Assembly (NCBI RefSeq): GCF_000332115.1
Contig: NC_020156.1
Location: 1-64,000, forward strand
Length of the DNA: 64,000 nucleotides
Source of the DNA: Nonlabens dokdonensis DSW-6
GTDB lineage: Bacteria; Bacteroidota; Bacteroidia; Flavobacteriales; Flavobacteriaceae
Reading direction: 5' to 3'
The notes below the pieces were generated by a model. It saw only the letters and a list, made by a program, of their open reading frames with translations, was not told where the DNA came from and ran no database searches. The position numbers were made by a program, and so were the translations under genes. This document shows, in pieces, positions 3,990-26,808 of this stretch (its first letter is position 1; each line of letters begins with the position of its first letter).

Positions 3990-5033
3990 TTATAAATTTA
4001 AATCATTAGTGTTCCAGCCTGTAGATGTGTTACACCATAAATGACCTTTTTTAATCTCTAGTGGCGCATCAATATTATTTGTGTATAGAGAGCCTGTTCC
4101 TAGACCTTGTGGCATTTGACTGCCAAGAGTATAGGTAAATTGAGCAATGGCATTCAAGCCTACATTAGATTCCAAAGCACTTGTTATCCACCAGCCACTA
4201 TTGCGTTGTGTAGCAAGATCTATCCATTCTCTACTACTTTGAAAACCACCTACTAAGGCTGGCTTTAGAATAACATATTGCGGCTTGATAGTGTCTAGAC
4301 ATTTAATTTTGCTTTCTCTATCATACAATCCTATTAACTCTTCATCTAGAGCGATATCAAGTGGTGTTTGCTCACAAAGTGCAGCCATTTCTTGCCATTG
4401 ACCTTGTTTTATAGGTTGCTCAATACTATGCACTTGATGTTTAGAAATTGCCTCCAGCTTTTGTATTGCATTGTCTGGAGTAAAAGCACCATTTGCATCT
4501 ACTCTTATGGTGATCTCACTTTCGCGAAAGCGGGAACGTATCAATTTCAATAAACCCATTTCGGCTTCAAAGTCTATGGCGCCTATCTTCATTTTGATGC
4601 AATTAAAACCAGCTTTCAGCTTTTCCTCTAGCTGTTGCATCATAAAATCTTGATCGCCCATCCAGACCAGACCGTTTATAGAAATAGAATCCTGACCTTC
4701 TGTAAATAAAGACGGGAATAGAGTAAATGGATTGCTAGATTGCAAAGATTGAAGTGCCGTTTCATAACCAAACAATATCGATGGCCATTCTTTTAATTCC
4801 TGCATGATTTGTGATGGAGAAAGCGAAATATGATCGCAAATCCATTGTAGTTTCTCTTCAAAATCAGGACGGTCATCCATAGAAAGGCCTTGAAACATAT
4901 TGATCTCTCCTATTCCCTTTTTCTCGCCGTTATCAAGAATTAAAAACCAGGTGTTTTTAGTTTTTAAAACACCACGAGAAGTACCTGCTGGCTGCTTAAA
5001 ATTAAGAACATATTTCTGTATCGTTGCTTTCAT
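3990..5033 (-). CDS. menC: o-Succinylbenzoate synthase (MenC)
   Basis: Enolase-superfamily dehydratase of 347 residues forming o-succinylbenzoate in menaquinone synthesis. Catalytic lysine motif KMK (K147, K149), metal ligands in VDANGAF (D179), EQP (E205) and DEE (D230, E231), and the second lysine K257 in LKPALVGG are all visible. First gene of the menC-CPBP-menE unit. One copy of the abundant 16-bp palindrome lies inside and is read as R-F-R-E-S at residues 168-172. Superfamily members include racemases with similar motifs, but the neighbourhood favours MenC. Confidence 0.9.
   Translation of the reverse strand: MKATIQKYVLNFKQPAGTSRGVLKTKNTWFLILDNGEKKGIGEINMFQGLSMDDRPDFEEKLQWICDHISLSPSQIMQELKEWPSILFGYETALQSLQSSNPFTLFPSLFTEGQDSISINGLVWMGDQDFMMQQLEEKLKAGFNCIKMKIGAIDFEAEMGLLKLIRSRFRESEITIRVDANGAFTPDNAIQKLEAISKHQVHSIEQPIKQGQWQEMAALCEQTPLDIALDEELIGLYDRESKIKCLDTIKPQYVILKPALVGGFQSSREWIDLATQRNSGWWITSALESNVGLNAIAQFTYTLGSQMPQGLGTGSLYTNNIDAPLEIKKGHLWCNTSTGWNTNDLNL
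4517..4532. repeat. 16-bp palindrome copy inside menC (15/16 match)
   Basis: CACTTTCGCGAAAGCG, one base off the consensus CGCTTTCGCGAAAGCG. It is in frame and read on the minus strand as RFRES. Confidence 0.9.
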
Positions 5034-5168
5034 AGCGTGAAAATAAAGAATTGTTTTAATAGCGATTAGAGAAGTAAGAAAACTTTACAATCTCTAAGAT
5101 AGAATTAAGGAGATCCTTGATGAAATTGGGAACAGAAAAAAGCAAAATTTTCGAATATTAGTCTGATC

Positions 5169-5229
5169 GATAGTCGAAGAGGTTTACCTGAGAATAGAGA
5201 TTGTGCTCGGTAAAAAGGTTTCGACTATC
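5169..5229. repeat. Imperfect 61-bp inverted repeat
   Basis: Outer arms GATAGTCGAA (5169-5178) and TTCGACTATC (5220-5229) are perfectly complementary; inside them TTTACC/GGTAAA and GAG/CTC also pair, leaving small internal loops and a 13-nt apical loop. This is consistent with a folded RNA or a mobile small repeat. Confidence 0.6.
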
Positions 5230-5299
5230 ACTCAACCAAGCATGGTGCTGTTTTTCATTATTAGGGAATAAGGGTGAAACATTTTTTTAGATAAAATCA

Positions 5300-5372
5300 G
5301 CCGATCCCTGATAAATTTGGAATAGGTAATGAACTACTTTGAGATATCTCGAGCCAAATTTTCTGGGATGGC
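5300..5372. repeat. Imperfect 73-bp inverted repeat
   Basis: GCCGATCCC (5300-5308) pairs with GGGATGGC (5365-5372) with one bulge, and AAATTTGG (5313-5320) pairs with CCAAATTT (5354-5361). The apex contains the palindrome GAGATATCTC (5341-5350). Confidence 0.55.
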
Positions 5373-5449
5373 TCTGTTCGGTTGACAAACTTGGAGATAG
5401 GTTCTAAGAGATTCCAGATAATTTGCTGCGCAAATTTCTGAAATTAAAA

Positions 5450-5902
5450 CTACCCTTTCCTCCTCACCGTCCATTCAAACTGGAACTCACTTACTTGAAT
5501 TCCATCTTCATTGACACCTTGCGATGTCATCCATACAGTTTGTCCTTCTCCAGTGGCAATAGTTTTCTCGATAGCCTCTTTAATAGCGAGCCCATCATGG
5601 CATTTAAAAGTAATAAGTCCCGTAGCTTTTTTAGTAAAAGTAGCTTTATTGTTTGCGACTAGCATAGAAACTTTGGCATCACTTTGTTGAATATAAGACA
5701 TAACTAATGCACCAGTAGAAAGCTCAGCCGCCATAGCTTGAACGGCAAAATACATACTCTTAAAGGGATTCTGATTGAACCATTTATGCTTCACTGTTAC
5801 GGTACAGTTTTCAGGATCAATTTCTTGACATCTCACACCAGTCCACCAGCAACTCGGTAGCTTAAAAAAGGTAAAAGCATTGATTTTTTTAGGTGTGATC
5901 AT
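5450..5902 (-). CDS. DUF4442 hot-dog-fold thioesterase-like protein
   Basis: Protein of 150 residues resembling the DUF4442 family, which has the hot-dog thioesterase fold. Features include KHKWFNQNPFKSMYFAVQAMAAELSTG (given here only by its start region, residues about 36-60) and a C-terminal strand ending VRRKG. An ATG 99 bp further upstream is possible, but that extension would run through the intergenic palindrome and an AT-rich region and does not look like protein. The chosen ATG gives the typical N-terminus MITPKKINAFTFFKLPSC. Substrate unknown; no pathway partners are adjacent. Confidence 0.75.
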   Translation of the reverse strand: MITPKKINAFTFFKLPSCWWTGVRCQEIDPENCTVTVKHKWFNQNPFKSMYFAVQAMAAELSTGALVMSYIQQSDAKVSMLVANNKATFTKKATGLITFKCHDGLAIKEAIEKTIATGEGQTVWMTSQGVNEDGIQVSEFQFEWTVRRKG

Positions 5903-5939
5903 AAAATTAGAATTTATTTCAAAAATATTTTCAGGTATA

Positions 5940-5947
5940 CAAAAGTA
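5940..5947 (-). promoter_or_regulatory. Candidate -7 element (TACTTTTG) for the DUF4442 gene
   Basis: Matches the Bacteroidota -7 consensus TAnnTTTG on the minus strand, 37 bp before the chosen ATG. No clear -33 TTG was seen. Confidence 0.4.
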
Positions 5948-5969
5948 GTGAAAAGGCTTGTATTTATTA

Positions 5970-5985
5970 CGCTTTCGCGAAAGCG
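5970..5985. repeat. 16-bp palindrome copy, intergenic (perfect)
   Basis: Perfect CGCTTTCGCGAAAGCG between divergent genes, just upstream of the candidate DUF4442 promoter. Confidence 0.95.
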
Positions 5986-6032
5986 AAACTATTAAAACCA
6001 ACCTTGAAATTAAAAATATTTAGTACTTTGTA

Positions 6033-6064
6033 TTGCATAATACTATCTTTTAGATATATATTTG
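6033..6064 (+). promoter_or_regulatory. Bacteroidota-type promoter for the DUF4870-PadR-PspC operon
   Basis: TATATTTG (6057-6064) fits the -7 consensus TAnnTTTG; a TTG at 6033-6035 lies about 21 bp upstream at the -33 position. The ATG of the DUF4870 gene is 20 bp downstream. Confidence 0.55.
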
Positions 6065-6083
6065 CATAAGAAAATAATATGCT

Positions 6084-6584
6084 ATGGAATCAACAAACCA
6101 AAATAATCACAATAATATCGCCACTGGTATTCATTTACTGACCTTCGGTAAATGGTTATTTCCCTTGGGTAATTTTGTGCTGCCCATTCTTTTATGGATG
6201 ATCAATTCTAAAAAATCTGAATTTATAGACAGACATGGAAAGCAAGCGATTAACTTTCAAATAAGTTTGACTCTTTACACGATCGTTCTCGCATTTATAG
6301 GCGGCGGAGTTATCATAGGCTCTATGATATCTGGAGGTCCTAGTCTTTGGGAAGCGATGGATCATGGAAGTGACTTTCCTTTCTGGAATGATATGGGAAT
6401 ATTTAGTACCATCATTGCTAGCGGTGTCATTTGCGGTACTGCGATATTTGCTTTAGGTGTTATAGATCTCGTTTGTACTATAAAAGCGGCCATAAAAGCA
6501 CACGATGGAGAAAATTACGATTATCCACTAACGATTAACTTTATACCTCATCATGATGAAGTAGAGGTTTCAAAAGAAAAATAA
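6084..6584 (+). CDS. DUF4870 domain membrane protein
   Basis: Integral membrane protein of 166 residues. The N-terminal segment LGNFVLPILLWMINSKKSEF followed by DRHGKQAINFQIS is the DUF4870 signature; about three to four hydrophobic segments follow (residues 20-38, 55-80, 110-145). First gene of an apparent operon with PadR, PspC and, after a terminator-like region, a GIN-domain protein. Function is unknown; the neighbourhood suggests an envelope-related role. It is 1 bp from the PadR start. Confidence 0.82.
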   Translation: MESTNQNNHNNIATGIHLLTFGKWLFPLGNFVLPILLWMINSKKSEFIDRHGKQAINFQISLTLYTIVLAFIGGGVIIGSMISGGPSLWEAMDHGSDFPFWNDMGIFSTIIASGVICGTAIFALGVIDLVCTIKAAIKAHDGENYDYPLTINFIPHHDEVEVSKEK

Positions 6585-6585
6585 T

Positions 6586-6927
6586 ATGAAGATAGAAAAC
6601 ACAAAAGCGCAAATGCGTAAAGGAGTACTAGAGTACTGCATTCTATCCATCTTAAAAGAAGAAGATGCCTATGTCGCAGAGATTCTTGACACTTTAAAAG
6701 ATGCTAAAATGCTAGTAGTAGAAGGTACTATTTACCCTTTACTTACCAGACTAAAAAATGCTGGACTCCTTAATTACAGGTGGGAAGAAAGTACAGGAGG
6801 ACCGCCACGTAAGTATTACGGACTTACAGAAACAGGTAAAATATTTCTTACAGAACTTACTACTACCTGGGACGATCTCAAAAATGCAGTTAACCTAGTG
6901 ACCAAATCAAAAACAACGAAATCATGA
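6586..6927 (+). CDS. PadR-family transcriptional regulator
   Basis: Winged-helix repressor of 113 residues. The PadR core is visible as MRKGVLEYCILSIL (helix 1), YVAEILDTL, VVEGTIYPLLTRLKNAGLL (recognition helix and wing) and GGPPRKYYGLTETG. It begins 1 bp after the DUF4870 gene and overlaps the PspC gene by 4 bp, so the three are cotranscribed and translationally coupled. PadR proteins usually repress their own operon in response to a small molecule or envelope stress. No operator dyad was recognised at the 6033-6083 promoter. Confidence 0.92.
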   Translation: MKIENTKAQMRKGVLEYCILSILKEEDAYVAEILDTLKDAKMLVVEGTIYPLLTRLKNAGLLNYRWEESTGGPPRKYYGLTETGKIFLTELTTTWDDLKNAVNLVTKSKTTKS

Positions 6928-8669
6928 ACAAGACCATCAATATAAACCTAGCTGGGCTGTTCTTCCATATAGATGAAGATGCCTACCAACGACTGCAACG
7001 TTATCTAGCGGCAGTACGTAAATCATTTGCCGGCACTAGTGGTGCTGACGAGATCATGAGCGATATAGAATCGCGCATTGCAGAGCTATTTCTTGAAAAA
7101 AGAGCTAATGATCAACAGGTCATTTCTATAAATCACGTAGAGGAAGTCATCAGTATTATGGGACAACCTGAAGATTATGAAGTGGATGAAGAAATTTTTG
7201 AAGAGCAAACTTCTCGTAGAGCTTATAGACCTTCTGGTAAAAACAAGCAACTATTTAGAGATACACAAAACGGCTACGTAGGTGGTGTTTCTAGTGGTTT
7301 AGGTTTTTACTTAGGCATAGATACTATATGGGTACGTGTTATTTGGGTTCTATTAGTCTTTTTTAGTGTAGGATGGGCAATACCTGTTTACATTTTGCTT
7401 TGGATTCTTGTACCTGACGCGGTAACCACTAACCAGCGTCTCACGATGATGGGTAAAGAAGTAAATATTTCTAATATAGAAGAGAATTTTAAGCAGGGTT
7501 TTGAACCTGTGGTTGATGGGCAGACCGACGCCAGCCACCATATCGTAGGTCAGAAAGGAAAAAGAGGATCCATTAGATTCTTCAGCTTTTTAGGAAGACT
7601 AATTAAAGGGTTTTTTAAAGCGATCATAAAGATCATAGGACTAGTGGTATTTCTTGCCGCTATTACCGGATTAATAGGTTTAATCGTATCTATGATTACT
7701 GCTAGTGTAGTTAATGTAGATGGTCAGAATTTAATTCATTTGTTTGACCTTGTGATCCCTCATGAGCAAGCTTCTTGGGTATTGATAACTGCAATAATTT
7801 TTGCAGCAGGAATACCGTTGTTCATTCTTGCTATCTTAGGTTTAAAGTTATTAGTGAACAACTTGAAATCAATAGGTATGCCGGCCAAAATTGTTCTTGT
7901 AGTTCTATGGGTAATTTCTGTTATCGTTATAAGTGTATCAGCGGCGCGTATTGCTGCTAGCCAAGCCTTTGATGCTAATGTGATCAATGTGGAAGAGTAC
8001 GCTATTGAAAAAGACAAGGTGTTTGAATTAAATTTGTTGAAGAATACTGATTTAGGCAACGAGGTCTACGTCAATAATAATGGATTTAATGTTATTGATT
8101 ATAATGGTGAAAAGGCGATAAGAGTTAAAGAGGTACATGTAGCTGTTGCACAAAGCAGAGATAGTCTCGTTTATGTAAAGCTTAATTTCAAGGCAAAAGG
8201 TGATTCATTTACAAAAGCAAAAACTAATGCCGAATCTTTAGTTTATGAATACAAAATGACTGAAAATTCTTTTACTGCACCTAATTATATTATTGCACCT
8301 AAAGGAACTGGACTCTTCGGACAAAAAGTAAATGTAACGATATATTTACCAGAAGGAACGAAGATGAAATTGAATAGGAGGTTCCAGTACAACTATTACA
8401 ACTGGATAGGAGATGATGTTGTTGACTTGGGTCGCAACAAAGACCAAACTTTTCAAGTTCAAAACGGTAAAGCGATATGTTTAGATTGCCCGATAGAAGA
8501 AAATCTAAATTCGGATGATGCGTTAGAATTAGATCAAAGATCAGATTCGAGTACATCTACAGATGGACAATGGAAATACTCAGAAGATGACGAACAAGTA
8601 ATCAAAACTAAAACAGATACTTTACAAAATGGAAGCGTATCAAAAACAACGATTACAATAGATAAATAA
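6924..8669 (+). CDS. PspC domain-containing membrane protein
   Basis: Protein of 581 residues. Residues 1-95 form a soluble region ending in acidic sequence. A PspC domain at about 105-165 (GVSSGLGFYLGIDTIWVRVIWVLLV begins it) contains two membrane segments; further hydrophobic segments lie near 225-260, 285-310 and 320-345. The last 230 residues are extracytoplasmic and beta-rich, ending in an acidic, Ser/Thr-rich tail. This long PspC architecture preceded by PadR is typical of Bacteroidota. PspC in proteobacteria senses envelope stress; here a similar role is inference. It overlaps padR by 4 bp. Confidence 0.88.
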   Translation: MNKTININLAGLFFHIDEDAYQRLQRYLAAVRKSFAGTSGADEIMSDIESRIAELFLEKRANDQQVISINHVEEVISIMGQPEDYEVDEEIFEEQTSRRAYRPSGKNKQLFRDTQNGYVGGVSSGLGFYLGIDTIWVRVIWVLLVFFSVGWAIPVYILLWILVPDAVTTNQRLTMMGKEVNISNIEENFKQGFEPVVDGQTDASHHIVGQKGKRGSIRFFSFLGRLIKGFFKAIIKIIGLVVFLAAITGLIGLIVSMITASVVNVDGQNLIHLFDLVIPHEQASWVLITAIIFAAGIPLFILAILGLKLLVNNLKSIGMPAKIVLVVLWVISVIVISVSAARIAASQAFDANVINVEEYAIEKDKVFELNLLKNTDLGNEVYVNNNGFNVIDYNGEKAIRVKEVHVAVAQSRDSLVYVKLNFKAKGDSFTKAKTNAESLVYEYKMTENSFTAPNYIIAPKGTGLFGQKVNVTIYLPEGTKMKLNRRFQYNYYNWIGDDVVDLGRNKDQTFQVQNGKAICLDCPIEENLNSDDALELDQRSDSSTSTDGQWKYSEDDEQVIKTKTDTLQNGSVSKTTITIDK

Positions 8670-8782: not shown

Positions 8783-9607
8783 ATGAAAAAATTAGTACTA
8801 TTCATTTTTGCAATAACAACTTCTATTGTAAATGCCCAAGACCTTGTCAAGGTGAAAGGAAACCGAGAAGTAACTACAGAAATTAGCCCACTTAATTCTT
8901 TTGATTATCTAGAAATAAGCGGTGACTATGAAATTGAAATCGTTCCTGGAGTAGCTCCACAAATAGAAATTACTACAGACTCCAACTTACACCAATACCT
9001 CGCAGCAAGTGTAGTAGATGGAAAACTAGTGGTGACCACTACTGCTAGAATTCGTTCAAAGAAGGAAATGAAATTTAGAATAATTTACGGACCTGAATTA
9101 AATAAAATAACGGTTACCGAGGACGCACAACTCTCTTCTGTTACAAGTTTGACTTTTGATGATCTAGAACTTAATATTAAAGAAGATGCAGAAGTTTATA
9201 TGACTGCCAATGTTGCTAGACTCAATCTCTATGCAGAAAAAAGCACCAAAGCAGAATTAAACCTTACTGGGAAAACGGCTGTCATTAATCTAGAAGATAA
9301 TGCAGAAATTAAAGCGCTCATAAAATACAGTGATCTAGAATTAAACGCTAAGGACAGAGTGGACGCTCGTATAGAAGGAGATGTAGATAGTGGTATCATA
9401 AACCTAAAGGATCGTTCAAGTATTGAATTTAAAAATCTTGTTTTTGATAAACTGGATCTTAAAATAAAAAATAATACTAATGCTCAAGTAAATGTAAAAG
9501 GCAATTTTTATTTAGAATCTACAGATGATGCAGAAGTTTCTCTTTATGGCTCACCGAGTATCAAAATCAATAAATTTACAGGAAAGTCGGTTCTTAAAAA
9601 GGAATAG
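8783..9607 (+). CDS. Exported head GIN domain (DUF2807) protein
   Basis: Protein of 274 residues with a signal peptide ending near A18-Q19 (MKKLVLFIFAITTSIVNAQ). The rest is a repetitive beta-helical sequence with regularly spaced short strands and Asp/Asn turns, typical of the putative auto-transporter adhesin head GIN (DUF2807) family. It lies downstream of the PadR-PspC genes, as is common in Bacteroidota, but has its own candidate promoter and is separated by a terminator. Likely periplasmic or surface located; molecular role unknown. Some homologues are lipoproteins; no lipobox is present here. Confidence 0.85.
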   Translation: MKKLVLFIFAITTSIVNAQDLVKVKGNREVTTEISPLNSFDYLEISGDYEIEIVPGVAPQIEITTDSNLHQYLAASVVDGKLVVTTTARIRSKKEMKFRIIYGPELNKITVTEDAQLSSVTSLTFDDLELNIKEDAEVYMTANVARLNLYAEKSTKAELNLTGKTAVINLEDNAEIKALIKYSDLELNAKDRVDARIEGDVDSGIINLKDRSSIEFKNLVFDKLDLKIKNNTNAQVNVKGNFYLESTDDAEVSLYGSPSIKINKFTGKSVLKKE

Positions 9608-17310: not shown

Positions 17311-19740
17311 TTATTCTTTAACGATCTTACCTGAATAACTTTGATTTCCATCATCTGTAATTCTATAAACATAAATTCCTGGTCGTAACGAAGCTTGTGA
17401 ATATCTCGCAGTAAGGTTTCCTTGCTCGGTAGTCATATTCTGAACATCTACTACTCTACCTGATAGATCAAAGAGCGTTAGGGTAATTTTTTCGCTTTCT
17501 TTAGCTAACTGAAAAGTAGTTGTATTCACAAAAGGGTTAGGATAATTACTTACTGCTGCTTGATTTATTGAGCTTGCATTATCTACACTCAAAGTACTAT
17601 TCAATTGAAATTTCAAATCATTGATGCTCAAATCAAAAGGCTGAAATGTATTGTAATCGCCACTCATAGAAAACACTATGGACCTAAAGTGATCGCTAGC
17701 GCTAGAAATACCAGCAGGATTGATAAAATCATCAAAATCAATGGTAACATTTGCAGGCATTGCATGCGCTGGAATCGTATAGCGGTAACGAGCTGACCAA
17801 GCTATGGCCTCATCAGTAATCAGAACAATCTCTATAGGTAACGAGTTACTAACTTCAAAAGACATCTGGTCATAATCTGATACGTCAACTAATTGATCAC
17901 CTGCTTTTAAATGTCTAAACAGGTTGAGCGTTTCTTTAATGTTACCTTGAATCGTTGGATTTCTTTCTACATAATAGGTATCATTAGCAGGAAAAGAACT
18001 TGTAGAGGTGATGTCAAAACTGTTGACCATAACTTCTCCATCTATATAATCAGTTCCCCAAGGACCATCTGCCAGATACAAGGCATCAATTTGTTCATTC
18101 GGTCCAGTTGAAAGGGAAACACCTGCATCAAATATCCCACCGGTGTTTACTTCTACGGTTTGAATATAATCGCCAGTTAAACTTATGGAGTTAGAATAAG
18201 GAATGAGACCAGCTACTTCAGTTTGTTTCAAATTTGCATCTAGTAAGACTGAAGAAAGCCTGTTTAAATTATTAATCTCAAGGTGTAACTTACCATTTTC
18301 ATAATACCCATTACGCACAAAAACTGGAGGAACTAGATTATTTAAAGTTAGACTGTTCAACGTTTTCTGTGCTGTGTAAGTATCTAATATATGATTCACT
18401 ATATGAAATACTTGAGCATAAGAACTACCCCAAATTTGATAATTGTTATAATCTCCTGCTGGATAACGGTCAATACTCCAGTAACTGTATAAATCATTTT
18501 CTACTGCTCCTAATTTAATTGAAAAGCTTACAGAATATTCTATAGATCCATTATCGCGTATGATTGTAGAAGTTAAGAGCTGGTGACCTCTCGCAGTTAC
18601 CGTTCTTACATCATCTAATGTAGAATTATTCAATCGGTCACAAATGGCTTTAGAATGATCATAAACTCCATTTTGAGTGTCTGTTGCAAGCACAGCAGCA
18701 ACACGATTTGCTTGTTGATAATAATCTACGGCAAGGACTTCATTTGCATTTGTAATTCCTAATAAATCTGTAGGTGTAGAATATTGAGGGTTTTCTGTTC
18801 CATACTGACCAGTTAATGGTAAATAACCGTCTAGACTATTAATTGTCCCACTTTTTACAAGAAAAGATGATTGAGCAGCTTTTTTAGACATCTGGTTATT
18901 ATCCTTCAGTCTATTTAAATTGCGCTTAGCAATTAAACTAGCTAGGTCTCCATTACTTTCTAGACCGCCATTATTTCCTGAAGAAACCGTGTTAGAGCCA
19001 GAAGCATCTGGACGAGTTAAATTGATTGTTTTTAAAGCAGTATAAGGATTTGCCGTGATGTAAAAGATAGCATCATTAAAATCCTGATCACAAGAGGCAT
19101 AATCACGACGTATATCTTCAAAACCTAGTATAATTCTCTCATTTACATCATCATTCAAAAGAACATTATGCTTTCTCAAAGAAGGATCATTTTCTGGATT
19201 ATAGTCCTCATTAGAGTATACTTGCCATTGTCCTGCTGTTACTTGATTGTTTTGAAAACCGTTAGCTAAAAGAACCCAACCTATTCCTGTACCTGCTGGA
19301 AACCTGCCTATATGAACCTTATTTCCAGCAAGTAGTCCACCACCACTCCATTGTGCAGAGACATTTGGGAAAATGATTGTTATGTCGCTTGCACTAGGTG
19401 CTGGATGATTTGTAATTGAGGTATCATAAGTGTAAAAACCTAATACATTTTTATATCCAGCTCCTTCTGCAACAAAGGTTACCCAGACATCTGCCTGATC
19501 TTCTAGTAGAATATCAGTATCATAACCAGAAGAAATGTACTGTGGATTAAAATCTGGCACAGGATAACTTTCTGGAAGAGCATTATTCACCATTTGTAAA
19601 AAATCTCCAGTAATCACATCATCTACTGGTTCTAAATAATCTGGTGTCCCGTCAGAACTAAATGTTCCTAGGTATTGATAGTTTTGAGATGGCGCAATAA
19701 AGCTTATCAACAACGCGACAATTAAAATAATTTTATTCAT
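17311..19740 (-). CDS. LruC/DUF4114 domain protein with type IX secretion sorting domain
   Basis: Large exported protein of 809 residues with signal peptide MNKIILIVALLISFIAPSQ. A DUF4114 block lies near residues 80-235, including the Asp-rich ASCDQDFNDAIFYI, a motif of calcium-dependent surface proteins; the centre is LruC-like. The C-terminal 80 residues (from NYPNPF, through LFDLSGRVV, to YRITDDGNQSYSGKIVKE) are a type A T9SS sorting domain, so the protein should cross the outer membrane. Role probably adhesive or matrix-related. Its promoter carries two LytTR-like direct repeats, and it lies just downstream of the LytTR gene. Confidence 0.85.
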   Translation of the reverse strand: MNKIILIVALLISFIAPSQNYQYLGTFSSDGTPDYLEPVDDVITGDFLQMVNNALPESYPVPDFNPQYISSGYDTDILLEDQADVWVTFVAEGAGYKNVLGFYTYDTSITNHPAPSASDITIIFPNVSAQWSGGGLLAGNKVHIGRFPAGTGIGWVLLANGFQNNQVTAGQWQVYSNEDYNPENDPSLRKHNVLLNDDVNERIILGFEDIRRDYASCDQDFNDAIFYITANPYTALKTINLTRPDASGSNTVSSGNNGGLESNGDLASLIAKRNLNRLKDNNQMSKKAAQSSFLVKSGTINSLDGYLPLTGQYGTENPQYSTPTDLLGITNANEVLAVDYYQQANRVAAVLATDTQNGVYDHSKAICDRLNNSTLDDVRTVTARGHQLLTSTIIRDNGSIEYSVSFSIKLGAVENDLYSYWSIDRYPAGDYNNYQIWGSSYAQVFHIVNHILDTYTAQKTLNSLTLNNLVPPVFVRNGYYENGKLHLEINNLNRLSSVLLDANLKQTEVAGLIPYSNSISLTGDYIQTVEVNTGGIFDAGVSLSTGPNEQIDALYLADGPWGTDYIDGEVMVNSFDITSTSSFPANDTYYVERNPTIQGNIKETLNLFRHLKAGDQLVDVSDYDQMSFEVSNSLPIEIVLITDEAIAWSARYRYTIPAHAMPANVTIDFDDFINPAGISSASDHFRSIVFSMSGDYNTFQPFDLSINDLKFQLNSTLSVDNASSINQAAVSNYPNPFVNTTTFQLAKESEKITLTLFDLSGRVVDVQNMTTEQGNLTARYSQASLRPGIYVYRITDDGNQSYSGKIVKE

Positions 19741-19760: not shown

Positions 19761-19768
19761 CAAAAGTA
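19761..19768 (-). promoter_or_regulatory. -7 element (TACTTTTG) for the LruC gene
   Basis: Exact TAnnTTTG match on the minus strand, 20 bp before the ATG. No TTG occurs at the -33 position, consistent with dependence on an activator bound to the upstream repeats. Confidence 0.6.
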
Positions 19769-19811
19769 AAACGCTATGTCGCCTTAAATTTTAATTTACG
19801 ATTAGCACCAT

Positions 19812-19842
19812 TTTGGTGTCGTCGAGTGGTAGTTTAACATCG
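19812..19842 (-). promoter_or_regulatory. Two LytTR-like direct repeats upstream of the LruC gene
   Basis: TTTGGTGTCG (19812-19821) and TTTAACATCG (19833-19842) are spaced exactly 21 bp start to start, two helical turns. They lie 44 bp upstream of the -7 element. The same motif at the same spacing and almost the same distance (46 bp) precedes the signalling operon at 26126-26177. LytTR proteins typically bind direct repeats at 21-22 bp spacing. Confidence 0.6.
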
Positions 19843-19862
19843 TTGAGTAAAATCAGAGAATT

Positions 19863-20609
19863 TTAAAGTAAGTTCAACCTACGCATTAATTCTGGTCTGT
19901 TAGACCTGCTTATAGGAATCACATTCTTTTCTATCAACACACTATTATCCTCTATATCAATAATTTTATTGATGTTAATTATATAAGAACGGTGTACTTT
20001 CAGGAATAAAGATTCTGGTAACTTTTCAACTATTTTTTTGAGAGTAGAATGAACCGTGTAATTTTTGTGTTCTGTTTTTATTAAAACATAATCTCCTTTT
20101 GCCTCAATTAAGTAAATATGTTCAAATTCTATTTTGACGAGCCTGCGATCAATATTGACATACATTTCCTTTTCTGGAGCAGAAACACCACTTGAAGACG
20201 GCGCTATTTCTTTTTTAAGAGATGGAGTGACCTCTTTCTTTTGTACTTTCTCAATAGATTTTAAAAACCTAGGTAAGGTTATAGGTTTGAGTAGATAATC
20301 TACAATACAATCGTATTCAAAAGCCTCAATCGCAAAATTTCTATCTGATGTAGTTAGAACAATCTTAGGTGGATTACGCAGTGTTTCTATAAAGTCAAAA
20401 CCGCTAAAATCAGGCATATGAAGATCTAAGAATATTAGATCAATATCATTTTTTCTTAGAAACTTCATTGCACTTAGTGCATTAGGAAACTCCTCGATTA
20501 CATCAAGGTTTTCCACCTGACTGCACAAATGAGTCATGATAGTTCTCGCTGCAGCCTCATCATCAATTATAATACAATTCAAATTGAAATATTTTTGATT
20601 ATAAAGCAA
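19863..20609 (-). CDS. LytTR-family response regulator
   Basis: Protein of 248 residues. Receiver domain at about 10-125 with acidic pocket D16-D17-E18, phosphoacceptor D62 in IFLDLHMPDFSG, and conserved K in YLLKPI. A linker of about 25 residues precedes a LytTR DNA-binding domain at about 150-248 (LVKIEFEHIYLIEAKGDYV begins it; HRSYIINI and ISRSNRPEL follow). Last gene of the seven-gene signalling operon, 8 bp after hpt. It is the only DNA-binding output of the operon and the likely reader of the 21-bp-spaced repeats. Confidence 0.93.
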   Translation of the reverse strand: MLYNQKYFNLNCIIIDDEAAARTIMTHLCSQVENLDVIEEFPNALSAMKFLRKNDIDLIFLDLHMPDFSGFDFIETLRNPPKIVLTTSDRNFAIEAFEYDCIVDYLLKPITLPRFLKSIEKVQKKEVTPSLKKEIAPSSSGVSAPEKEMYVNIDRRLVKIEFEHIYLIEAKGDYVLIKTEHKNYTVHSTLKKIVEKLPESLFLKVHRSYIININKIIDIEDNSVLIEKNVIPISRSNRPELMRRLNLL

Positions 20610-20617: not shown

Positions 20618-20935
20618 TTATAAATCACTTATAAAACGATTACAGGAATCAAGTAAGGAGTCAAATTTTTTTTTGAGCGTACTTTTACCGTTACGCAATT
20701 CTTCTTCATAAGCTATGGCGAGCTCATATCCTTGAGATAGTCCTAATATTCCTAGTTTGTGCTTTAATTTGTGTACGTTTTCTGCCGCTTTCGCGAAAGC
20801 GGAATCATTAAAATTCTTCTCGTACAACTGTATCTCTTCTGGTAATTCCTTTTTTACAACGTCGAGTAATTTATCGACAAACGTAGGATCTCCACCAGCA
20901 ATTTCATTAATATAATCTAGATTAGGTTGTTCCAT
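20618..20935 (-). CDS. Hpt (histidine phosphotransfer) domain protein
   Basis: Single-domain phosphotransfer protein of 105 residues. The phosphoacceptor is most likely H55 in VHKLKHKLGILGL, matching HxLK(G). A palindrome copy encodes A46-F-A-K-A50 in the helix just before this histidine. In a relay, Hpt passes phosphate from a kinase receiver to another receiver; here the partner would be the adjacent LytTR receiver, though neither kinase in the operon carries its own receiver domain. The gene is 3 bp from the upstream kinase and 8 bp from the LytTR gene. Confidence 0.85.
   Translation of the reverse strand: MEQPNLDYINEIAGGDPTFVDKLLDVVKKELPEEIQLYEKNFNDSAFAKAAENVHKLKHKLGILGLSQGYELAIAYEEELRNGKSTLKKKFDSLLDSCNRFISDL
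20786..20801. repeat. 16-bp palindrome copy inside the Hpt gene (perfect)
   Basis: Perfect CGCTTTCGCGAAAGCG within an 18-bp palindrome (20785-20802), read as AFAKA immediately before the phosphohistidine helix. Confidence 0.95.
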
Positions 20936-20938: not shown

Positions 20939-21988
20939 CTAGGATTTAGGTAATGTAAAAAATATGGAAGTTCCAACGCCAGGAAGACTTTCAATCCAAA
21001 TTTCTCCTTTATAAAACATGATAATTTTCTTTACAATGGAGAGTCCGATTCCTGTACTGCTAGAGTCGTTCTCAAGTTTTTGAAAAACTTGAAAAATTTT
21101 ATCAAAATAAGCAGGTTCAATGCCTTTACCATTATCTTTTATTTCAAACTGATACTTTGATTCTAGATCTCTTGATATAATATCAATGCGGCCATTAGGT
21201 TTATCCATATTTTTGACTGCGTTGTCTATTAGGTTTTGAAAAACCTGTTGCAATTTGACTGGATCTCCTTTAATGGTAGGAAGTAAATGCACTACTATTT
21301 TTACATGATCCGGTATGTGAAGTAATTTTATATTTTCACGAACCAATGTGTTTAAATCTAGCTCATGCTCTGTTCTTATCTCCTTATCTATCGAAGAATA
21401 TTCTAAAATCCCAGAAATTAAGGAATCCATTTTTTCCAAATGTGAGACGATTAAGGACAAATGCGTTTTACCTTCATCACCTAGAACTTCTTCATAATCC
21501 TCTTTGATCCAACTCACCAGAGCCTCTATACTTCTTAATGGCGATTTCAAGTCATGTGAAACAATATGAGCATAATCATTAAGCTCCTGATTTTGAAGAG
21601 CTAGTTCTTCTAGCAGCTTTTCTTGATCTTTGTTTACTTTAATCAATTGCTCTGCCTGCTCACTTATATAGTTAGCTAAGTTTTTCTTATCGGTAAGCTT
21701 GATTTCAGTGCCGCCTTTCTTATTATTTTCAAACGGCTTTACTGCATTAATAACCGATTGTAATTTGAGTAACAAATAACGTTGTTGTTTAGTCTCTTCT
21801 CTCAGAGCTTTATTTGCCTCAAAAAGTTCATCTGAGCTTATTTTCATAGCCCTTTGCGTCATTTTAAACTGATCATCAAGATTATCATAAGACGCAGAAA
21901 CCGCTTTAAAAAAAGAATGCATGTCTTCTCGATCTTTAAGATCGTCTGGAAAATACTTGCGGATTTGCCTCTTTAAAAGTGGATTCAT
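20939..21988 (-). CDS. Cytoplasmic sensor histidine kinase
   Basis: Protein of 349 residues without membrane segments. Residues 1-135 are charged and helical, probably coiled coil. HisKA domain at about 135-205 with H145 in IVSHDLKSPLRS; HATPase domain at about 240-347 with N-box NLIDNAVKN, DNGKGIEP, F-box and GIGLSIVKKI. No PAS or receiver domain. Starts 0 bp after the FIST gene, strongly suggesting it receives the FIST signal. The catalytic part closely resembles that of the larger PAS kinase in the same operon, indicating duplication. Confidence 0.92.
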   Translation of the reverse strand: MNPLLKRQIRKYFPDDLKDREDMHSFFKAVSASYDNLDDQFKMTQRAMKISSDELFEANKALREETKQQRYLLLKLQSVINAVKPFENNKKGGTEIKLTDKKNLANYISEQAEQLIKVNKDQEKLLEELALQNQELNDYAHIVSHDLKSPLRSIEALVSWIKEDYEEVLGDEGKTHLSLIVSHLEKMDSLISGILEYSSIDKEIRTEHELDLNTLVRENIKLLHIPDHVKIVVHLLPTIKGDPVKLQQVFQNLIDNAVKNMDKPNGRIDIISRDLESKYQFEIKDNGKGIEPAYFDKIFQVFQKLENDSSSTGIGLSIVKKIIMFYKGEIWIESLPGVGTSIFFTLPKS

Positions 21989-23119
21989 TTATTCACTTAT
22001 TAAAGTTATAGTCATGGTCTGATTGTGTAATTTACAACTGCGTTCTCCATAAAAAGGAGCTATTTCTCCATAAGAATACATTCCAGCAATTATCGTTTCA
22101 TTTCCTATTATGCCTCTTACTTCTTCTATTTCTTCTTCAATTCTCTGATCTAGAACTAATTTACGTCCTATACAACTTATAAGTAAGGCCAGATGTGGTG
22201 GCTCTATACGTCCTTCCATTGCTCTTATGGCTGCAGTTTCTGAAGCCGCCGCGATACTATCCATGTTTGTCATCATAAGTTGCACAGTAGAATTAACAGG
22301 CACATCGCCTGCAAGAATCATAGCATTTTTTTCTTCGTCTATATTTAGAATTGTGCGAACAAAGGATTGTTTATTCTCCTGACTCTTAACATTTAAAGGA
22401 TATATCAAAGCAGATCCTGGTAGTTCCTTTGCTTTATCACCTAAGTATGTTTTGTACAAATCTAAAGCTGGTTTTCCATCAATTTCGTATAATATATTAC
22501 CATCTGATTTTGTTACTAATCTTTCAGGACCAAAAGGCGTCCAGCCACCGTAAATAGAAAAAGAAGCTTCTAAACTTTCTCCATAAAATCCTATAACAAT
22601 GATCTCTCCTTCCTTAGGCGTTTCATTGAATGAAGCTAAAGTTTTCTCAAAACGATCATCATCTCCACATAATCCTCCAGTTATAAGAACCTTAGGAAGG
22701 TGTTCTTGCATTCCTTTGGTCAAATCTGAGCCATTTACAAAACTTCCTTCAGAAATTACAAATACGTGTTTCAATCCCTCTTGAGTTAGCTGTTTTACAG
22801 CTTCTCGACCTGCTTTCTCACTATCTTCTTTTGTATCGTGTACATTATATCGTTGTACTTCATAAGTAGCTCGTTCAAATTCTATTGCAGTAACTGTTAT
22901 ATGTTTATCATTTACTGAACTGCCAACTAGTTCACCACAAGAAGATCCAAAAACCAAATTCCCTTCTGGAAACATACCTCGAACCTCATTAAAAAGACTC
23001 TCATCTTCTAATAAAAAACGGTTACCAAAGATCAATACTAAAGGAGTATTTAGATGTTGTTTCTTTCCTAAGTAGTGCCATTCTCCACCTGCTCGTTTTT
23101 GTAGCTGTACTGTCTTCAT
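21989..23119 (-). CDS. FIST domain signal-sensing protein
   Basis: Protein of 376 residues with FIST_N (about 25-215; LVFGSSCGELVGSSVNDKHI and ITGGLCGDDDRF) and FIST_C (about 225-365; ALDLYKTYLGDKA, GMYSYGEIAPF) domains. FIST proteins are proposed small-ligand sensors, perhaps for amino acids, that feed histidine kinases or cyclases. No membrane segment. It lies between the two kinases, 4 bp after the PAS kinase and directly abutting the second kinase. Its presence in an H-NOX operon implies a second input to the relay. Confidence 0.9.
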   Translation of the reverse strand: MKTVQLQKRAGGEWHYLGKKQHLNTPLVLIFGNRFLLEDESLFNEVRGMFPEGNLVFGSSCGELVGSSVNDKHITVTAIEFERATYEVQRYNVHDTKEDSEKAGREAVKQLTQEGLKHVFVISEGSFVNGSDLTKGMQEHLPKVLITGGLCGDDDRFEKTLASFNETPKEGEIIVIGFYGESLEASFSIYGGWTPFGPERLVTKSDGNILYEIDGKPALDLYKTYLGDKAKELPGSALIYPLNVKSQENKQSFVRTILNIDEEKNAMILAGDVPVNSTVQLMMTNMDSIAAASETAAIRAMEGRIEPPHLALLISCIGRKLVLDQRIEEEIEEVRGIIGNETIIAGMYSYGEIAPFYGERSCKLHNQTMTITLISE

Positions 23120-23123: not shown

Positions 23124-25109
23124 TTATTTTTCTATGGTAAAATAAAACGTTGTTCCTTCTCCTACTTTACTATCTAACCAGATTTTACCATTATATAAAT
23201 CAACAATCTTTTTGACGATTGATAGACCTATACCTGTAGAGTTCTCTCTTTTATTTAATGATTGAAATATTTGAAATATTTTATCATGGTACTCCTTATC
23301 GATTCCAATACCATTGTCCCTTACAGAGAATTTGTATTCATTCAAATTTTCTTCAAAATTAACCTCGATAATTCCTTGTTCTTTATCGCAATAGGAAATA
23401 GCATTGCTTATCAAGTTTTGAAATAATTGTTGAATTTTTACTCGATCTACTTTTAAAGTGGGTAATGTTTTTTTTACGTTAAAATCAATGTGTTCTGGAA
23501 AATGAAGTAAGGTTACGATATCATCCATTACCTTATTTAAATCAACTTCAGAAACAGTTTCCTTGTTACTTATTATGCTAGAATATTCTAAAACATCAGA
23601 GATGAGCTGCTCCATTTTTTCTAAGGTCGCGTCTATCATTTTAAAATTCTCTAAAGTTTCGGAAGATAATTTACCTTCATTGTCATCCTTTATCCAGCTC
23701 ATTAACGCACTTATACTGCGCAAAGGGGATTTTAAATCATGAGAAACTACATGTGCATATTCTTGCAACTCTTCGTTACTATTCTCAAGTTTTTTCAGCA
23801 GATTTTCCTTTTGAAGCTCGAGACTTTTAAGTTGAGTAATATCTAAGTGGATTCCGATGGAACCAATTACCTGACCGTTAATACTATAATTAGGTGCCCC
23901 ACTAATAAGCCAATATTTAATTGAACCGTCCTTGGCTTTGATCTTTACTTCATAGGAGTTTGACAATCCCTCTATACGTTTGCTATTTTCTTTTTCTAAT
24001 ATTTTAAGGTCATCCTTTACTAGTAGAACATCCTTACCTCTGCGACCTATTAACTCCTCGCTAGAATATCCAGACATTTGTTCTAGACTCTGGTTGACCA
24101 TAATAATGTTGTCCTCATTATCCACCTCAATGAGACCCAAGTTCATGTTTGCGATAATGTTGCTATATTTTTGACGCTCTGCTTCAATACTTTCACGGTA
24201 TTTTCTCCTGAGAGTCACATCTCGATAAGTCCACAAATGACCACGGTATTCATCGTTTTCATAAATAGGAATGAAATCGCGTTCTAACACTCTACCGTCA
24301 ACTAAGTAAAGTTCATCTGATAAAACTTGTTTTTTTTCATCGGTCAAATGGTTAATTCTTTCTACAAATTCTTCAGGGTTCTTGAAAAGACTTTTGCTTT
24401 GCTCAGCTGCATTTGCACAATTAACACCTACCATTTGTTCAGGTGAAACAGGAATTTTAAAAAATTGACAAAATCTTTGATTAGTAACTACCACGTTACG
24501 ATTTTCATCTTCTAATAGAACTGCACTATGAAGATGGCTGATAAGGGTAGAAAGTCTGTTTTGAGATTCAAGCAATAGCTTCTGAGCGGCATTTTCTTCT
24601 GTGATATCTCTGACTATACCTTGTGCTGCAACTGGCTGATTCTTGCCATTAAAAATAATACTGGCATTGATATGAACAAGCCTTACCGCGCCACTAGCTA
24701 CTTTTATTTTGACTTGAAAATCTGTTATTGACCCATTTTCAGAAAACTCTTTAAAACTGGTAAGAACTTTAACTTGTTCCTCAGGTAGGACGAGAGAAAA
24801 TAAATTCAACTTTGTATCTGTGGAATAACCTAATAAATCTTGTGCGGCATTGTTCATCCTTATGACAACACCGTTTAGATCCATTACTACATAAGCGTCT
24901 ACTATGTTCCCAAAAACACCTTTAAGCTCAGATGTTTTAGTTAGTAATAACTCTTCTAATTTTTCATTGGAAACCTTTAACTCTTGAGATTTTAAATAGA
25001 GTTCTTTAGATTTTTCTTCAAGTATACGTTCGGCTTCTTTCCTTGCAGCTTTCTCTCGCGCAAGTGCTCGTTCGTAAATTTTGATTTTATCATTATCCAT
25101 GTGTGGCAA
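23124..25109 (-). CDS. PAS-domain histidine kinase, probable partner of H-NOX
   Basis: Soluble kinase of 661 residues. Residues 4-65 are a strongly charged coiled coil (KEAERILEEKSKELYLKSQEL). Three PAS domains follow at about 65-175, 185-300 and 312-432, the last with a PAC motif (GSIKYWLISGAP). HisKA has H457 in VVSHDLKSPLRS; HATPase carries NLISNAISYC, RDNGIGI and GIGLSIVKKI. Its start overlaps the H-NOX stop by 17 bp, the usual coupling of an H-NOX with its kinase. No receiver domain is attached, fitting the separate receiver and Hpt genes. Confidence 0.93.
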   Translation of the reverse strand: MPHMDNDKIKIYERALAREKAARKEAERILEEKSKELYLKSQELKVSNEKLEELLLTKTSELKGVFGNIVDAYVVMDLNGVVIRMNNAAQDLLGYSTDTKLNLFSLVLPEEQVKVLTSFKEFSENGSITDFQVKIKVASGAVRLVHINASIIFNGKNQPVAAQGIVRDITEENAAQKLLLESQNRLSTLISHLHSAVLLEDENRNVVVTNQRFCQFFKIPVSPEQMVGVNCANAAEQSKSLFKNPEEFVERINHLTDEKKQVLSDELYLVDGRVLERDFIPIYENDEYRGHLWTYRDVTLRRKYRESIEAERQKYSNIIANMNLGLIEVDNEDNIIMVNQSLEQMSGYSSEELIGRRGKDVLLVKDDLKILEKENSKRIEGLSNSYEVKIKAKDGSIKYWLISGAPNYSINGQVIGSIGIHLDITQLKSLELQKENLLKKLENSNEELQEYAHVVSHDLKSPLRSISALMSWIKDDNEGKLSSETLENFKMIDATLEKMEQLISDVLEYSSIISNKETVSEVDLNKVMDDIVTLLHFPEHIDFNVKKTLPTLKVDRVKIQQLFQNLISNAISYCDKEQGIIEVNFEENLNEYKFSVRDNGIGIDKEYHDKIFQIFQSLNKRENSTGIGLSIVKKIVDLYNGKIWLDSKVGEGTTFYFTIEK

Positions 25110-25635
25110 TACTGAATTTTACCTCCGTACCGTTTTCCTTAATATTTTCTACTAAAATAGTTGCATTAGTATTGAAATATTCAAAAGTCTTATTCATAAG
25201 CCCTTTTCCAAAAGAAGACATGGCTCTACTAGATTTATAGATCATTACTAATGTAGTATCTGTTTTATCTACTACAGTGAAACTCGGTAACTCTGCGTCC
25301 GGATAGATTTTACGTACTTCTACATGAATATGATTTTCGATGGAAGATATCATTTCTATAGGATCTTTGTATTGAGTTAAAAAGGAGGAGTAACTTCTCT
25401 CTACGACACTAAAAAAATGCTCGCCGTAAAGGAGCAGCAGATCCTCAATCGCTATTCCTGTTTCTTTGTTTAAATTAGTAAGTAAACTTAACATTTCAGA
25501 AAAACTGTAAGTTCCTACCGCTGTATAAGAGCCATTAGATGGTAGATTAGAATTATTGATTATGGTATCTACCATTTCAAAACCGAATTTATCTTCTACT
25601 AAATCTAAAAACTCTGTAAAGACTATTCCTTTCAT
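25093..25635 (-). CDS. H-NOX (heme nitric oxide/oxygen binding) sensor
   Basis: Heme sensor of 180 residues, normal H-NOX length. It opens with the family N-terminus MKGIVFTEF. The proximal heme ligand is H104 by alignment of ENHIHVEVRKIYPDAELPSF with the family motif, and the heme-propionate motif Y133-x-S135-x-R137 (YKSSR) is intact. No distal-pocket tyrosine is obvious, so NO-selective binding is more likely than O2 binding; this last point is inference. It shares one base with the preceding receiver gene and overlaps the PAS kinase gene by 17 bp. Confidence 0.93.
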   Translation of the reverse strand: MKGIVFTEFLDLVEDKFGFEMVDTIINNSNLPSNGSYTAVGTYSFSEMLSLLTNLNKETGIAIEDLLLLYGEHFFSVVERSYSSFLTQYKDPIEMISSIENHIHVEVRKIYPDAELPSFTVVDKTDTTLVMIYKSSRAMSSFGKGLMNKTFEYFNTNATILVENIKENGTEVKFSIATHG

Positions 25636-26051
25636 TATGCTTTTATTAATTCATTCATCGACCAATAGTCTAAAGTAACCTTTATTTTATTAACGTAATC
25701 CTCATATTTAAGGGGCTTTATTATATAGCCTGCTACACCTGTGGAGTAACATGCAAGCACATCTCTACGGTTATTTGAAGTAGTTAAAATGATCGTTGGG
25801 ATATATTTCAACACTTCATCTTCTTTCAAAATTTTAAGAAACTCTAGCCCATTAATTTTGGGCATATTCAGGTCTAAAAAGATGACATCTGGTATAATAT
25901 GATCTTGTTTAAGGATTTTTAAGGCCTCTTCTCCATTCTTAGCTTCTATGAGATCGTGATTTAATTCAAGCTTAACAATAGCGCGCTTCAGTTTCATAAC
26001 TTCGATCGCATCGTCTTCAATAAGTAATACTTTTAACTTGACATTTTTCAC
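25635..26051 (-). CDS. Single-domain response regulator (CheY-like)
   Basis: Receiver-only protein of 138 residues from a GTG start. Acidic pocket E-D-D follows KVLLI; phosphoacceptor D61 is in IFLDLNMPKING; TTS and K in IIKPL complete the site. The longer frame opens with TTG at 26075, but that codon lies inside the -7 element (26073-26080), and a stop closes the frame at 26084, so GTG (KNVKLKVLLIEDD) is preferred. First gene of the operon, with its stop overlapping the H-NOX start. Probably a relay intermediate or phosphate sink. Confidence 0.85.
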   Translation of the reverse strand: MKNVKLKVLLIEDDAIEVMKLKRAIVKLELNHDLIEAKNGEEALKILKQDHIIPDVIFLDLNMPKINGLEFLKILKEDEVLKYIPTIILTTSNNRRDVLACYSTGVAGYIIKPLKYEDYVNKIKVTLDYWSMNELIKA

Positions 26052-26072: not shown

Positions 26073-26080
26073 CAAATATG
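26073..26080 (-). promoter_or_regulatory. Candidate -7 element (CATATTTG) of the H-NOX signalling operon
   Basis: Seven of eight bases match TAnnTTTG, 21 bp before the GTG start. It lies 46 bp downstream of the nearest LytTR-like repeat. Confidence 0.5.
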
Positions 26081-26125
26081 ATTAATAATTCATTACTTTA
26101 TTTAAAATGTTAGTCGAATGACGCG

Positions 26126-26177
26126 TTTAGTGTCGATGGATAACCTTTAAGTGTCGACGAATGGAAATTTGGTGTTG
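26126..26177 (-). promoter_or_regulatory. Three LytTR-like direct repeats upstream of the signalling operon
   Basis: TTTAGTGTCG (26126-26135), TTAAGTGTCG (26147-26156) and TTTGGTGTTG (26168-26177) are spaced exactly 21 and 21 bp. Two more copies with the same spacing precede the LruC gene. The last copy touches the trhA stop codon. This is probably an autoregulatory site of the operon's LytTR protein. Confidence 0.65.
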
Positions 26178-26178
26178 A

Positions 26179-26808
26179 TCAAACTACTACGTACCAGACC
26201 ATCGCAGCATGACTAATACTGCCGCCTAAAACGAACAAGTGCCAGATCACATGATTAAAATAAAGTTTGTTCCAGACGTAAAAAACAATTCCTACAGTAA
26301 AAAAAATTCCACCTGCAATAAGCAAATTCATTTGCAATTCTGTGAAAGCAGCGATAAGATTAGTCAAATCAAAAACGATCAACCATCCCATCACTAGATA
26401 AAGGATACTTGAAAAAGCTTCAAATTTCCCTGTGAAAAATAATTTCCAAATAATTCCAAATACAGCAATACCCCAAACTGCGGCAAGTATATACCAACCA
26501 CTACTTTGTTCTAGGGTTATTAAACATATAGGCGTATAAGTTCCTGCTATCGAACCGTAAATAGAAATATGATCAAGTTTGCGCAACTTAAACTTTAAGG
26601 TGCCTTCTTTTGCCCTATGATAAGTAGTAGACGCACAATAAAGAATTAATTGAGATAAACAGTAGACTACTAAACCTACTATCATGTAATCCTTAGATAA
26701 ATCTGCATTAATAAATAGTGCAATAGATATGGCAGCAAATAGCAAGAATCCTAATCCATGTGTAATTACGTTCCACGTCTCCTCTACGACTGTTTGCGCT
26801 CTAGCCAT
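26179..26808 (-). CDS. trhA: Hemolysin III / PAQR-family membrane protein (TrhA)
   Basis: Seven-helix membrane protein of 209 residues. Conserved positions of the family are visible: H in ITHGLGF, YH in TYHRAK, DH in KLDHISIYGSIAGTYTP, and the C-terminal HxxxxxxxxxH in VIWHLFVLGGSISHAA. Despite the name it is not known as a true toxin; bacterial members affect membrane fluidity and lipid balance. Its start overlaps the oxidoreductase gene by 8 bp, so the two form an operon. Confidence 0.92.
   Translation of the reverse strand: MARAQTVVEETWNVITHGLGFLLFAAISIALFINADLSKDYMIVGLVVYCLSQLILYCASTTYHRAKEGTLKFKLRKLDHISIYGSIAGTYTPICLITLEQSSGWYILAAVWGIAVFGIIWKLFFTGKFEAFSSILYLVMGWLIVFDLTNLIAAFTELQMNLLIAGGIFFTVGIVFYVWNKLYFNHVIWHLFVLGGSISHAAMVWYVVV

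Follow-up and report, generated by a model that had tools for sequence, protein, structure and literature searches.

Conserved 21-bp direct repeats as a predicted LytTR binding array upstream of an H-NOX signalling operon, a secreted DUF4114 protein gene and polysaccharide genes in Nonlabens dokdonensis and related Flavobacteriaceae

The window analysed here comprises 64,000 nucleotides of the Nonlabens dokdonensis DSW-6 genome (contig NC_020156.1, positions 1 to 64,000) and carries a signalling operon whose genes follow each other in the order response regulator, H-NOX, PAS kinase, FIST protein, second kinase, Hpt and LytTR regulator, with a gene for a DUF4114 protein next in line; the gaps among the operon's open reading frames (ORFs) range from -17 to 8 bp, and 122 bp separate the LytTR gene from the DUF4114 gene. 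All genes and promoter elements of the window described below lie on the minus strand. The first gene (25635..26051) encodes a single-domain response regulator (Pfam Response_reg, 4.6e-22 on the longer ORF) of 138 residues when read from a GTG codon: The GTG at 26051 is the likelier start than the TTG at 26075 chosen by the ORF finder, because the latter overlaps the -7 box (26073-26080); the 138-residue version is similar to proteins of relatives. The second gene (25093..25635) codes for a heme gas sensor of the H-NOX (HNOB) type, with a Pfam HNOB match (3.3e-38; 131.6 bits, cut-off 25.5) that spans residues 2-160 on profile positions 1-161 of 163. Its matches among solved structures were 6bde (1.3e-78; the file name is that of an aldolase, and the chain is one which we take to be the Kordia algicida H-NOX) and 6ocv (2.6e-35; entitled "Heme NO binding domain protein"). 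The hallmarks of H-NOX proteins, a proximal heme histidine and a YxSxR motif, are present as HIHVEVRKIYPDAELP and YKSSR in the alignment to 6bde.

The remaining operon genes encode the PAS histidine kinase HK1 (23124..25109; Pfam PAS, HisKA, HATPase_c), a NosP-like FIST-domain protein (21989..23119; Pfam FIST 2.8e-42, FIST_C 5.2e-35), the histidine kinase HK2 (20939..21988; HisKA, HATPase_c), an Hpt phosphotransfer protein (20618..20935; Pfam Hpt 1.8e-07) and a LytTR response regulator (19863..20609; Pfam LytTR 1.2e-19, Response_reg 6.3e-18), so that the parts of a phosphorelay (kinase, receiver, Hpt and output receiver) are all encoded together. The FIST protein has both the N- and the C-terminal FIST domain, yet reached only 54.1 bits against the NCBIfam NosP model, the cut-off of which is 450. 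In the LytTR protein, for which alone among the operon products the Pfam scan found a DNA-binding domain, receiver and LytTR domain both exceeded the Pfam cut-off and the receiver residue D62 was invariant in 11 aligned sequences, that of the window included; when its LytTR domain by itself was searched against the PDB, a single relative fell below an E value of 0.01 (3d6w, 0.00015). The downstream gene (17311..19740; Pfam DUF4114 6.7e-19, Por_Secre_tail 6.5e-09) encodes a secreted protein, labelled "LruC-type" in an earlier note on this DNA, with a C-terminal sorting domain of the type IX secretion system (T9SS) that scored 36.4 bits in Pfam (cut-off 27) and 50.6 bits for TIGR04183 (cut-off 23).

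An H-NOX gene was present in 34 of the 99 genomes compared, N. dokdonensis counted; from 32 relatives 33 loci were fetched and turned to operon direction (the H-NOX locus of genome G083 was left out), five of which (L066-L070) are H-NOX loci other than this operon. A second collection was drawn from named records (322 stretches, 286 confirmed, 80 kept), in which, among the matches listed, the H-NOX of Nonlabens dokdonensis was closest (93% identity), followed by Dokdonia, Kordia, Aquimarina, Algibacter, Lacinutrix and others. The FIST gene is missing from the operons of L040, L053, L054 and L056, so that the FIST protein and the second kinase appear to form an optional module of an operon in which H-NOX, a PAS kinase, Hpt and LytTR are retained.

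In the earlier note, five 10-mer copies of a direct repeat had been pointed out, at 26126, 26147 and 26168 before the operon and at 19812 and 19833 before the DUF4114 gene. All five are present with a spacing of exactly 21 bp, and the distances given to the -7 elements were right, the 17-bp half-sites 26126-26142 and 19812-19828 ending 45 and 43 bp ahead of CATATTTG and TACTTTTG, respectively. Three of the copies (26126, 26147, 19812) proved to be strong, conserved half-sites; those at 26168 and 19833 did not (scores 2.7 and 1.2). The scores given here and below refer to a matrix of 17 positions, built from 40 half-sites of 20 relatives with the window genome excluded (of 25 operon promoters in the alignment, the 5 poor ones had been removed by hand), for which a match threshold of 15 was chosen by the analyst. 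The half-site is written CGACACTAAA, i.e. in promoter direction, because the genes read on the minus strand.

At the operon promoter, half-site 1, CATTCGTCGACACTTAA (26147..26163; score 28.6; aligned in 27 promoters), and half-site 2, TATCCATCGACACTAAA (26126..26142; score 22.6), which lies 21 bp downstream of it, are both strong and conserved, and they are followed by a degenerate proximal half-site region (26106..26122) that was absent from the earlier note and consists of weakly conserved columns in the 27-promoter alignment. TAnnTTTG is the -7 promoter consensus; the -7 element CATATTTG (26073..26080) resembles it and stands at the conserved offset, here 45. The extra upstream copy (26168..26184) is missing in G010, the relative with the most similar H-NOX, and as a functional half-site it is unsupported by the relatives; it is not conserved and thus either lineage-specific or fortuitous. 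At the DUF4114 promoter, where the -7 element TACTTTTG (19761..19768) stands at offset 43, the one strong half-site CACTCGACGACACCAAA (19812..19828; aligned in 13 LruC-type promoters) is weak by comparison with a score of 16.8. The pair 19812/19833 was replaced as the essential one: Because the aligned promoters have a degenerate half-site 21 bp downstream of the strong one, the better partner of 19812 is the proximal half-site TGCTAATCGTAAATTAA (19791..19807), unlisted before, which lies in conserved alignment columns and is the better conserved, though neither partner scores well on the matrix (-5.8 for the proximal one; the distal one, 19833..19849, has some conserved columns in LruC-type promoters).

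The DUF4114 promoters that adjoin the LytTR gene in G001, G002, G009 and G011 scored 9.4-13.1. Among the DUF4114-type genes located away from the operon, that of G024 has a site 71 bp ahead of its start (score 15.0), that of G009 one scoring 25.0 and that of G039 a possible one (17.7, inside a called ORF); no site of at least 14 was found at those of G023 and G047. The operon-linked locus of G009 (L039, oriented position 9956) holds a DUF4114 fragment only; its DUF4114-type gene is at C1:3087416, downstream of another half-site at C1:3085777. In G007 (L043, oriented position 8900) the promoter element is kept at the place expected for the DUF4114 gene, and no such gene was found genome-wide. 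Furthermore, in Lacinutrix, Algibacter and another relative (L277, L282, L290, L291, L306; approximately 15.9-16.2 kb), a phased site precedes a gene of about 164 residues, lipoprotein-like by eye, just before the DUF4114-type gene; this gene is likely a further target.

Searched in the 3.91-Mb genome of N. dokdonensis with up to 3 mismatches, the spaced pair TTTRGTGTCG-N11-TTTRGTGTCG gave 4 matches versus 2 for the reversed control, and three of the four were the sites already noted. By count, the pair thus exceeds chance modestly, and conservation is the deciding evidence. The fourth match (746845) and another candidate (602634) were rejected as targets, the best matrix scores there being 0.7 and 3.2. 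Footprinting of both promoters in relatives, which the earlier note had proposed, found the element conserved: In many relatives the operon promoter contains CCATTCGTCGACACTTAA with a second copy 21 bp further, and the refined half-site derived from them reads CATTCGTC(G/T)ACACT(T/A)AA, arranged as 21-bp direct repeats. Imperfect direct repeats approximately 21-22 bp apart are a trait of LytTR targets, and a conserved array of such spacing is present here. In the 99 genomes, GTCKACACTWAA-N9-GTCKACACTWAA with up to 3 mismatches had 21 matches versus 1 in the reversed control; 16 of them stand before the operon (in 15 genomes, two in N. dokdonensis itself) and 5 elsewhere in four operon-less genomes. 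With the matrix, 27 of the 30 operon promoters (N. dokdonensis, G027 and 28 relatives) scored at least 15, and no such match was obtained in the operon promoters of G031 (best 5.7), G032 (1.5) and G039 (10.5).

Over 42 loci, 20 of which had supplied training sites, the matrix recognised 104 half-sites of at least 15 (three sites in overlapping loci were counted twice), versus a mean of 1.7 in three shuffles; 102 were intergenic, and all 104 were on the strand of the operon or the polysaccharide genes. Outside this set, in 73 loci (the 80 named ones minus 7 on contigs already used), 161 matches were found versus 6 in one shuffle, among them 155 intergenic ones, 150 on the operon strand and 93 with a TTTG at 43-45 or 64-66. 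A match ahead of the response regulator gene was recognised in 47 of the 69 outside loci with enough upstream DNA by a text rule that misses some. Judged by this conservation, the repeats are a real, conserved control element. In two Aquimarina loci (L266, L275; at about 9330), a strong half-site was observed on the opposite strand, before a gene resembling by eye a nucleotide-sugar dehydrogenase, a possible divergent target.

The notion that the matches are merely chance or composition-driven repeats of an AT-rich genome draws on the count of single half-sites within N. dokdonensis: With up to 3 mismatches, the 17-bp half-site had 36 matches there versus 71 in the reversed controls and is, by number, unenriched. 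Against it stand the conservation over the 42 and the 73 loci and the narrow distance to the -7 box, on which it was rejected as having a negligible probability; moreover, 30 of the 36 matches lie inside ORFs and one (L098) is intergenic without a -7 box, whereas the five phased ones are outside genes. These five are operon half-site 2, the DUF4114 site and two polysaccharide sites, each at 43-45 from a -7 box, plus operon half-site 1, one repeat upstream. The joint architecture of half-site and -7 box singles out four promoters in this genome, namely those of the operon, of the DUF4114 gene and two in a polysaccharide locus 2.96 Mb away (C1:2982822, offset 44, score 12.6; C1:2985225, offset 43, score 21.2, sharing bases with the 5' end of a putative ORF that runs the opposite way). 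The earlier proposal that operon and secreted-protein gene share a LytTR-type 21-bp direct-repeat element in fixed orientation and at fixed distance to the -7 box is thus supported, the phased element being conserved and not scattered genome-wide; the "compact regulon" of the operon plus one adhesin-like protein, by comparison, was drawn too narrowly, since the polysaccharide locus elsewhere shares the promoter architecture.

Three further genes are preceded by matches, encoding a STAS-like protein, a polysaccharide flippase and a GT4 glycosyltransferase. In N. dokdonensis the glycosyltransferase (C1:2985670-2986863) had 71 bits for Pfam Glycos_transf_1, and no Pfam match at 0.001 was obtained for the STAS-like and flippase proteins; in G027, one STAS-like protein scored 30.3 bits and the other 22.5 for STAS (cut-off 22.6), and the flippase 41.3 bits for Polysacc_synt_3. 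Near the N. dokdonensis polysaccharide locus (C1:2977800-2987000, L211), inspection by eye suggested a transposase-like ORF (L211:9878-11434) and a pair of genes that resembles a toxin-antitoxin system.

The promoter geometry was compared in 71 promoters picked by hand from the matches (27 of the operon, 13 of the DUF4114 type including one that lacks its gene, 15 of STAS, 11 of glycosyltransferase and 5 of flippase genes), a set that leaves out weaker promoters such as those of the DUF4114 genes of G001, G002, G009, G011 and G057. The TTTG of a TAnnTTTG-like box was located at offset 43-45 in 57 of the 71, the next best offset having 4, and no second recurrent TTTG, as a possible -33 box, occurred at any offset in more than 4. 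In the 73 outside loci, the TTTG offsets had two maxima, one at 43-44 and the other, a single 21-bp step beyond it, at 64-65. The strong half-site has a neighbour on either side at the 21-bp interval: downstream a degenerate copy (such as ATCGAAAT or ATCGTAAAT), upstream a weaker one. Both the narrow -7 distance and the absence of any recurrent -33 word speak for an activator in contact with the polymerase. Alternatively, LytTR might bind the array and repress, the gas signal releasing or tightening repression of the matrix genes; indeed, AlgR activates some promoters and represses others, according to passages of PMC4064291, and H-NOX pathways either raise or lower biofilm formation, according to passages of PMC8738867. 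We consider repression improbable in view of the promoter geometry just described, and LytTR systems whose repeats directly precede the promoter activate themselves according to PMC6193735. Activation is hence the preferred reading.

A LytTR orthologue (E <= 1e-90) was present in 29 of the 99 genomes, plus G012, whose contig ends within the operon, and the glycosyltransferase (E <= 1e-60) occurred in 27 of the 30 operon genomes versus none of the 69 others (Fisher 3e-21); for 20 of these 27, the fetched 19 kb contained it together with the operon (19 of the 33 fetched loci plus G027). The strict half-site CATTCRTCKACASTWAA with up to 1 mismatch, counted by hand, had 72 matches in 29 of the 30 operon genomes (reversed control 22), of which 25 are operon-promoter sites used to make the pattern, so that 47 remain to be set against the 22; outside the operon genomes there were 19 matches in 14 of 69 (control 20). 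Both this pattern and the GTCKACACTWAA pair were derived partly from genomes in which they were searched. The element might be real and yet be bound by another transcription factor encoded elsewhere, with LytTR as a mere neighbour; many relatives do possess other LytTR proteins, as many as 14 matches having been counted in a genome at E <= 1e-30. The strict half-site, however, exceeds its control only in the set of genomes with this LytTR orthologue, core and spacing are LytTR-like, and no other product of the operon showed a DNA-binding domain in Pfam. In addition, sites and LytTR are kept together in G027, which had no H-NOX match, whereas none of the fetched H-NOX loci outside this operon had a matrix match, be it those of G072, G097 and G065, which lack a LytTR orthologue, that of G061, which has a more distant LytTR only, or the second H-NOX gene of G009. 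In consequence, we hold another factor to be improbable: The element, on balance, follows LytTR and its targets rather than H-NOX, and very likely it is to this operon's LytTR regulator that it serves as a binding site. The operon of G027 itself (L213, C13; oriented positions 5002-8505) consists of response regulator, PAS-GAF kinase, Hpt and LytTR and is followed by the DUF4114 gene; beyond this come a TPR-type gene on the other strand, two STAS genes, a flippase and a glycosyltransferase gene, with the motif still present.

As to the signal, H-NOX and FIST might sense O2, CO or the redox state instead of NO and still feed the same LytTR output, for which the distance of the FIST protein from the NosP cut-off (54.1/450 bits) and the lone PAS-GAF kinase of G027 could be quoted. 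Yet the solved chains that come nearest to the sensor belong to H-NOX proteins (6bde, presumably, and 6ocv), and the characterised kinase-adjacent H-NOX proteins are NO sensors according to PMC6769237; a signal other than NO thus appears rather unlikely, and NO is retained as the preferred one.

From the element, its geometry, its conservation and the gene set, all taken from the sequence, we infer binding by LytTR, activation rather than repression, the order of the phosphorelay and NO as the signal. According to the proposed mechanism, the H-NOX heme sensor, aided in some species by the FIST protein, would set the activity of the histidine kinases, from which phosphate would reach LytTR by way of Hpt and, before it, the single-domain response regulator. 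Phosphorylated LytTR would bind CATTCGTC(G/T)ACACT(T/A)AA half-sites every 21 bp. Between the -7 box and the end of the strong half-site closest to the promoter, a distance of 43-45 bp, a degenerate copy takes the place of a -33 box, as would suit an activator touching RNA polymerase. In this way LytTR would activate the operon that encodes it, the DUF4114 protein secreted by the T9SS and the matrix-polysaccharide locus (STAS-like, flippase, GT4), with NO-responsive switching of matrix export and secreted surface protein, in either direction, as a plausible role. We regard this explanation as a whole as probable, i.e. that the repeats are the array bound by the operon's own LytTR and that this regulator, fed by the H-NOX phosphorelay, activates operon, DUF4114 and polysaccharide genes. 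With more reserve, we lean slightly towards a generalisation to the Flavobacteriaceae: H-NOX, with or without FIST, would act via a phosphorelay on a LytTR activator of a T9SS surface protein and a polysaccharide locus that share one rigid promoter architecture, forming a direct, c-di-GMP-free circuit from NO to matrix in which regulator and targets are co-inherited and sensors swapped. The analysis provides a base-by-base prediction of the target promoters of a gas-sensing pathway across a large marine bacterial group, connects signalling through H-NOX with the export of matrix sugars as well as with a T9SS surface protein, and bears on whether these bacteria use NO for surface control.

No description of such a circuit was found in the titles and abstract starts of the open-licence literature on H-NOX or LytTR in Bacteroidetes among the matches listed, and the passages of PMC7356049 that concern Kordia algicida, nitric oxide or histidine kinases do not mention the pathway. 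Several characterised systems share parts of it, as judged from the passages available of the sources cited. In the H-NOX/kinase pathways of Shewanella and Vibrio, H-NOX likewise adjoins a histidine kinase and acts through a phosphorelay with biofilm output; as their outputs, PMC6769237 and PMC8738867 name c-di-GMP enzymes, quorum signalling through LuxU/LuxO and, in broad terms, the regulation of genes, whereas the output encoded here is a LytTR transcription factor with predicted matrix-gene targets. A FIST-domain protein and a kinase in one operon recall NosP of V. cholerae and P. aeruginosa (PMC6769237), from which the present FIST protein differs by its low score for that family and by sharing its operon with an H-NOX. 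LytTR repeats are known from upstream of autoregulated promoters, with spacers of 11-12 bp in Streptococcus mutans and 11-13 bp in others, and the HdrRM and BrsRM LytTR Regulatory Systems of S. mutans resemble the present case in having direct repeats immediately upstream of a self-activated operon and a few targets (PMC6193735); here, in contrast, LytTR has a receiver domain, the phosphorelay is co-encoded, and no inhibitory membrane protein as in those systems is among the Pfam names of the seven operon products. AlgR, a LytTR response regulator of Pseudomonas aeruginosa, recognises the core half-site CCGTTCGTC (PMC4064291), which the core CCATTCGTC of the present element resembles, and controls exopolysaccharide and surface traits. 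According to PMC4064291, however, its sites need not form direct repeats 12 bp apart, whereas most targets described here share one geometry to the TTTG of the -7 box, and an H-NOX gene is in the same operon.
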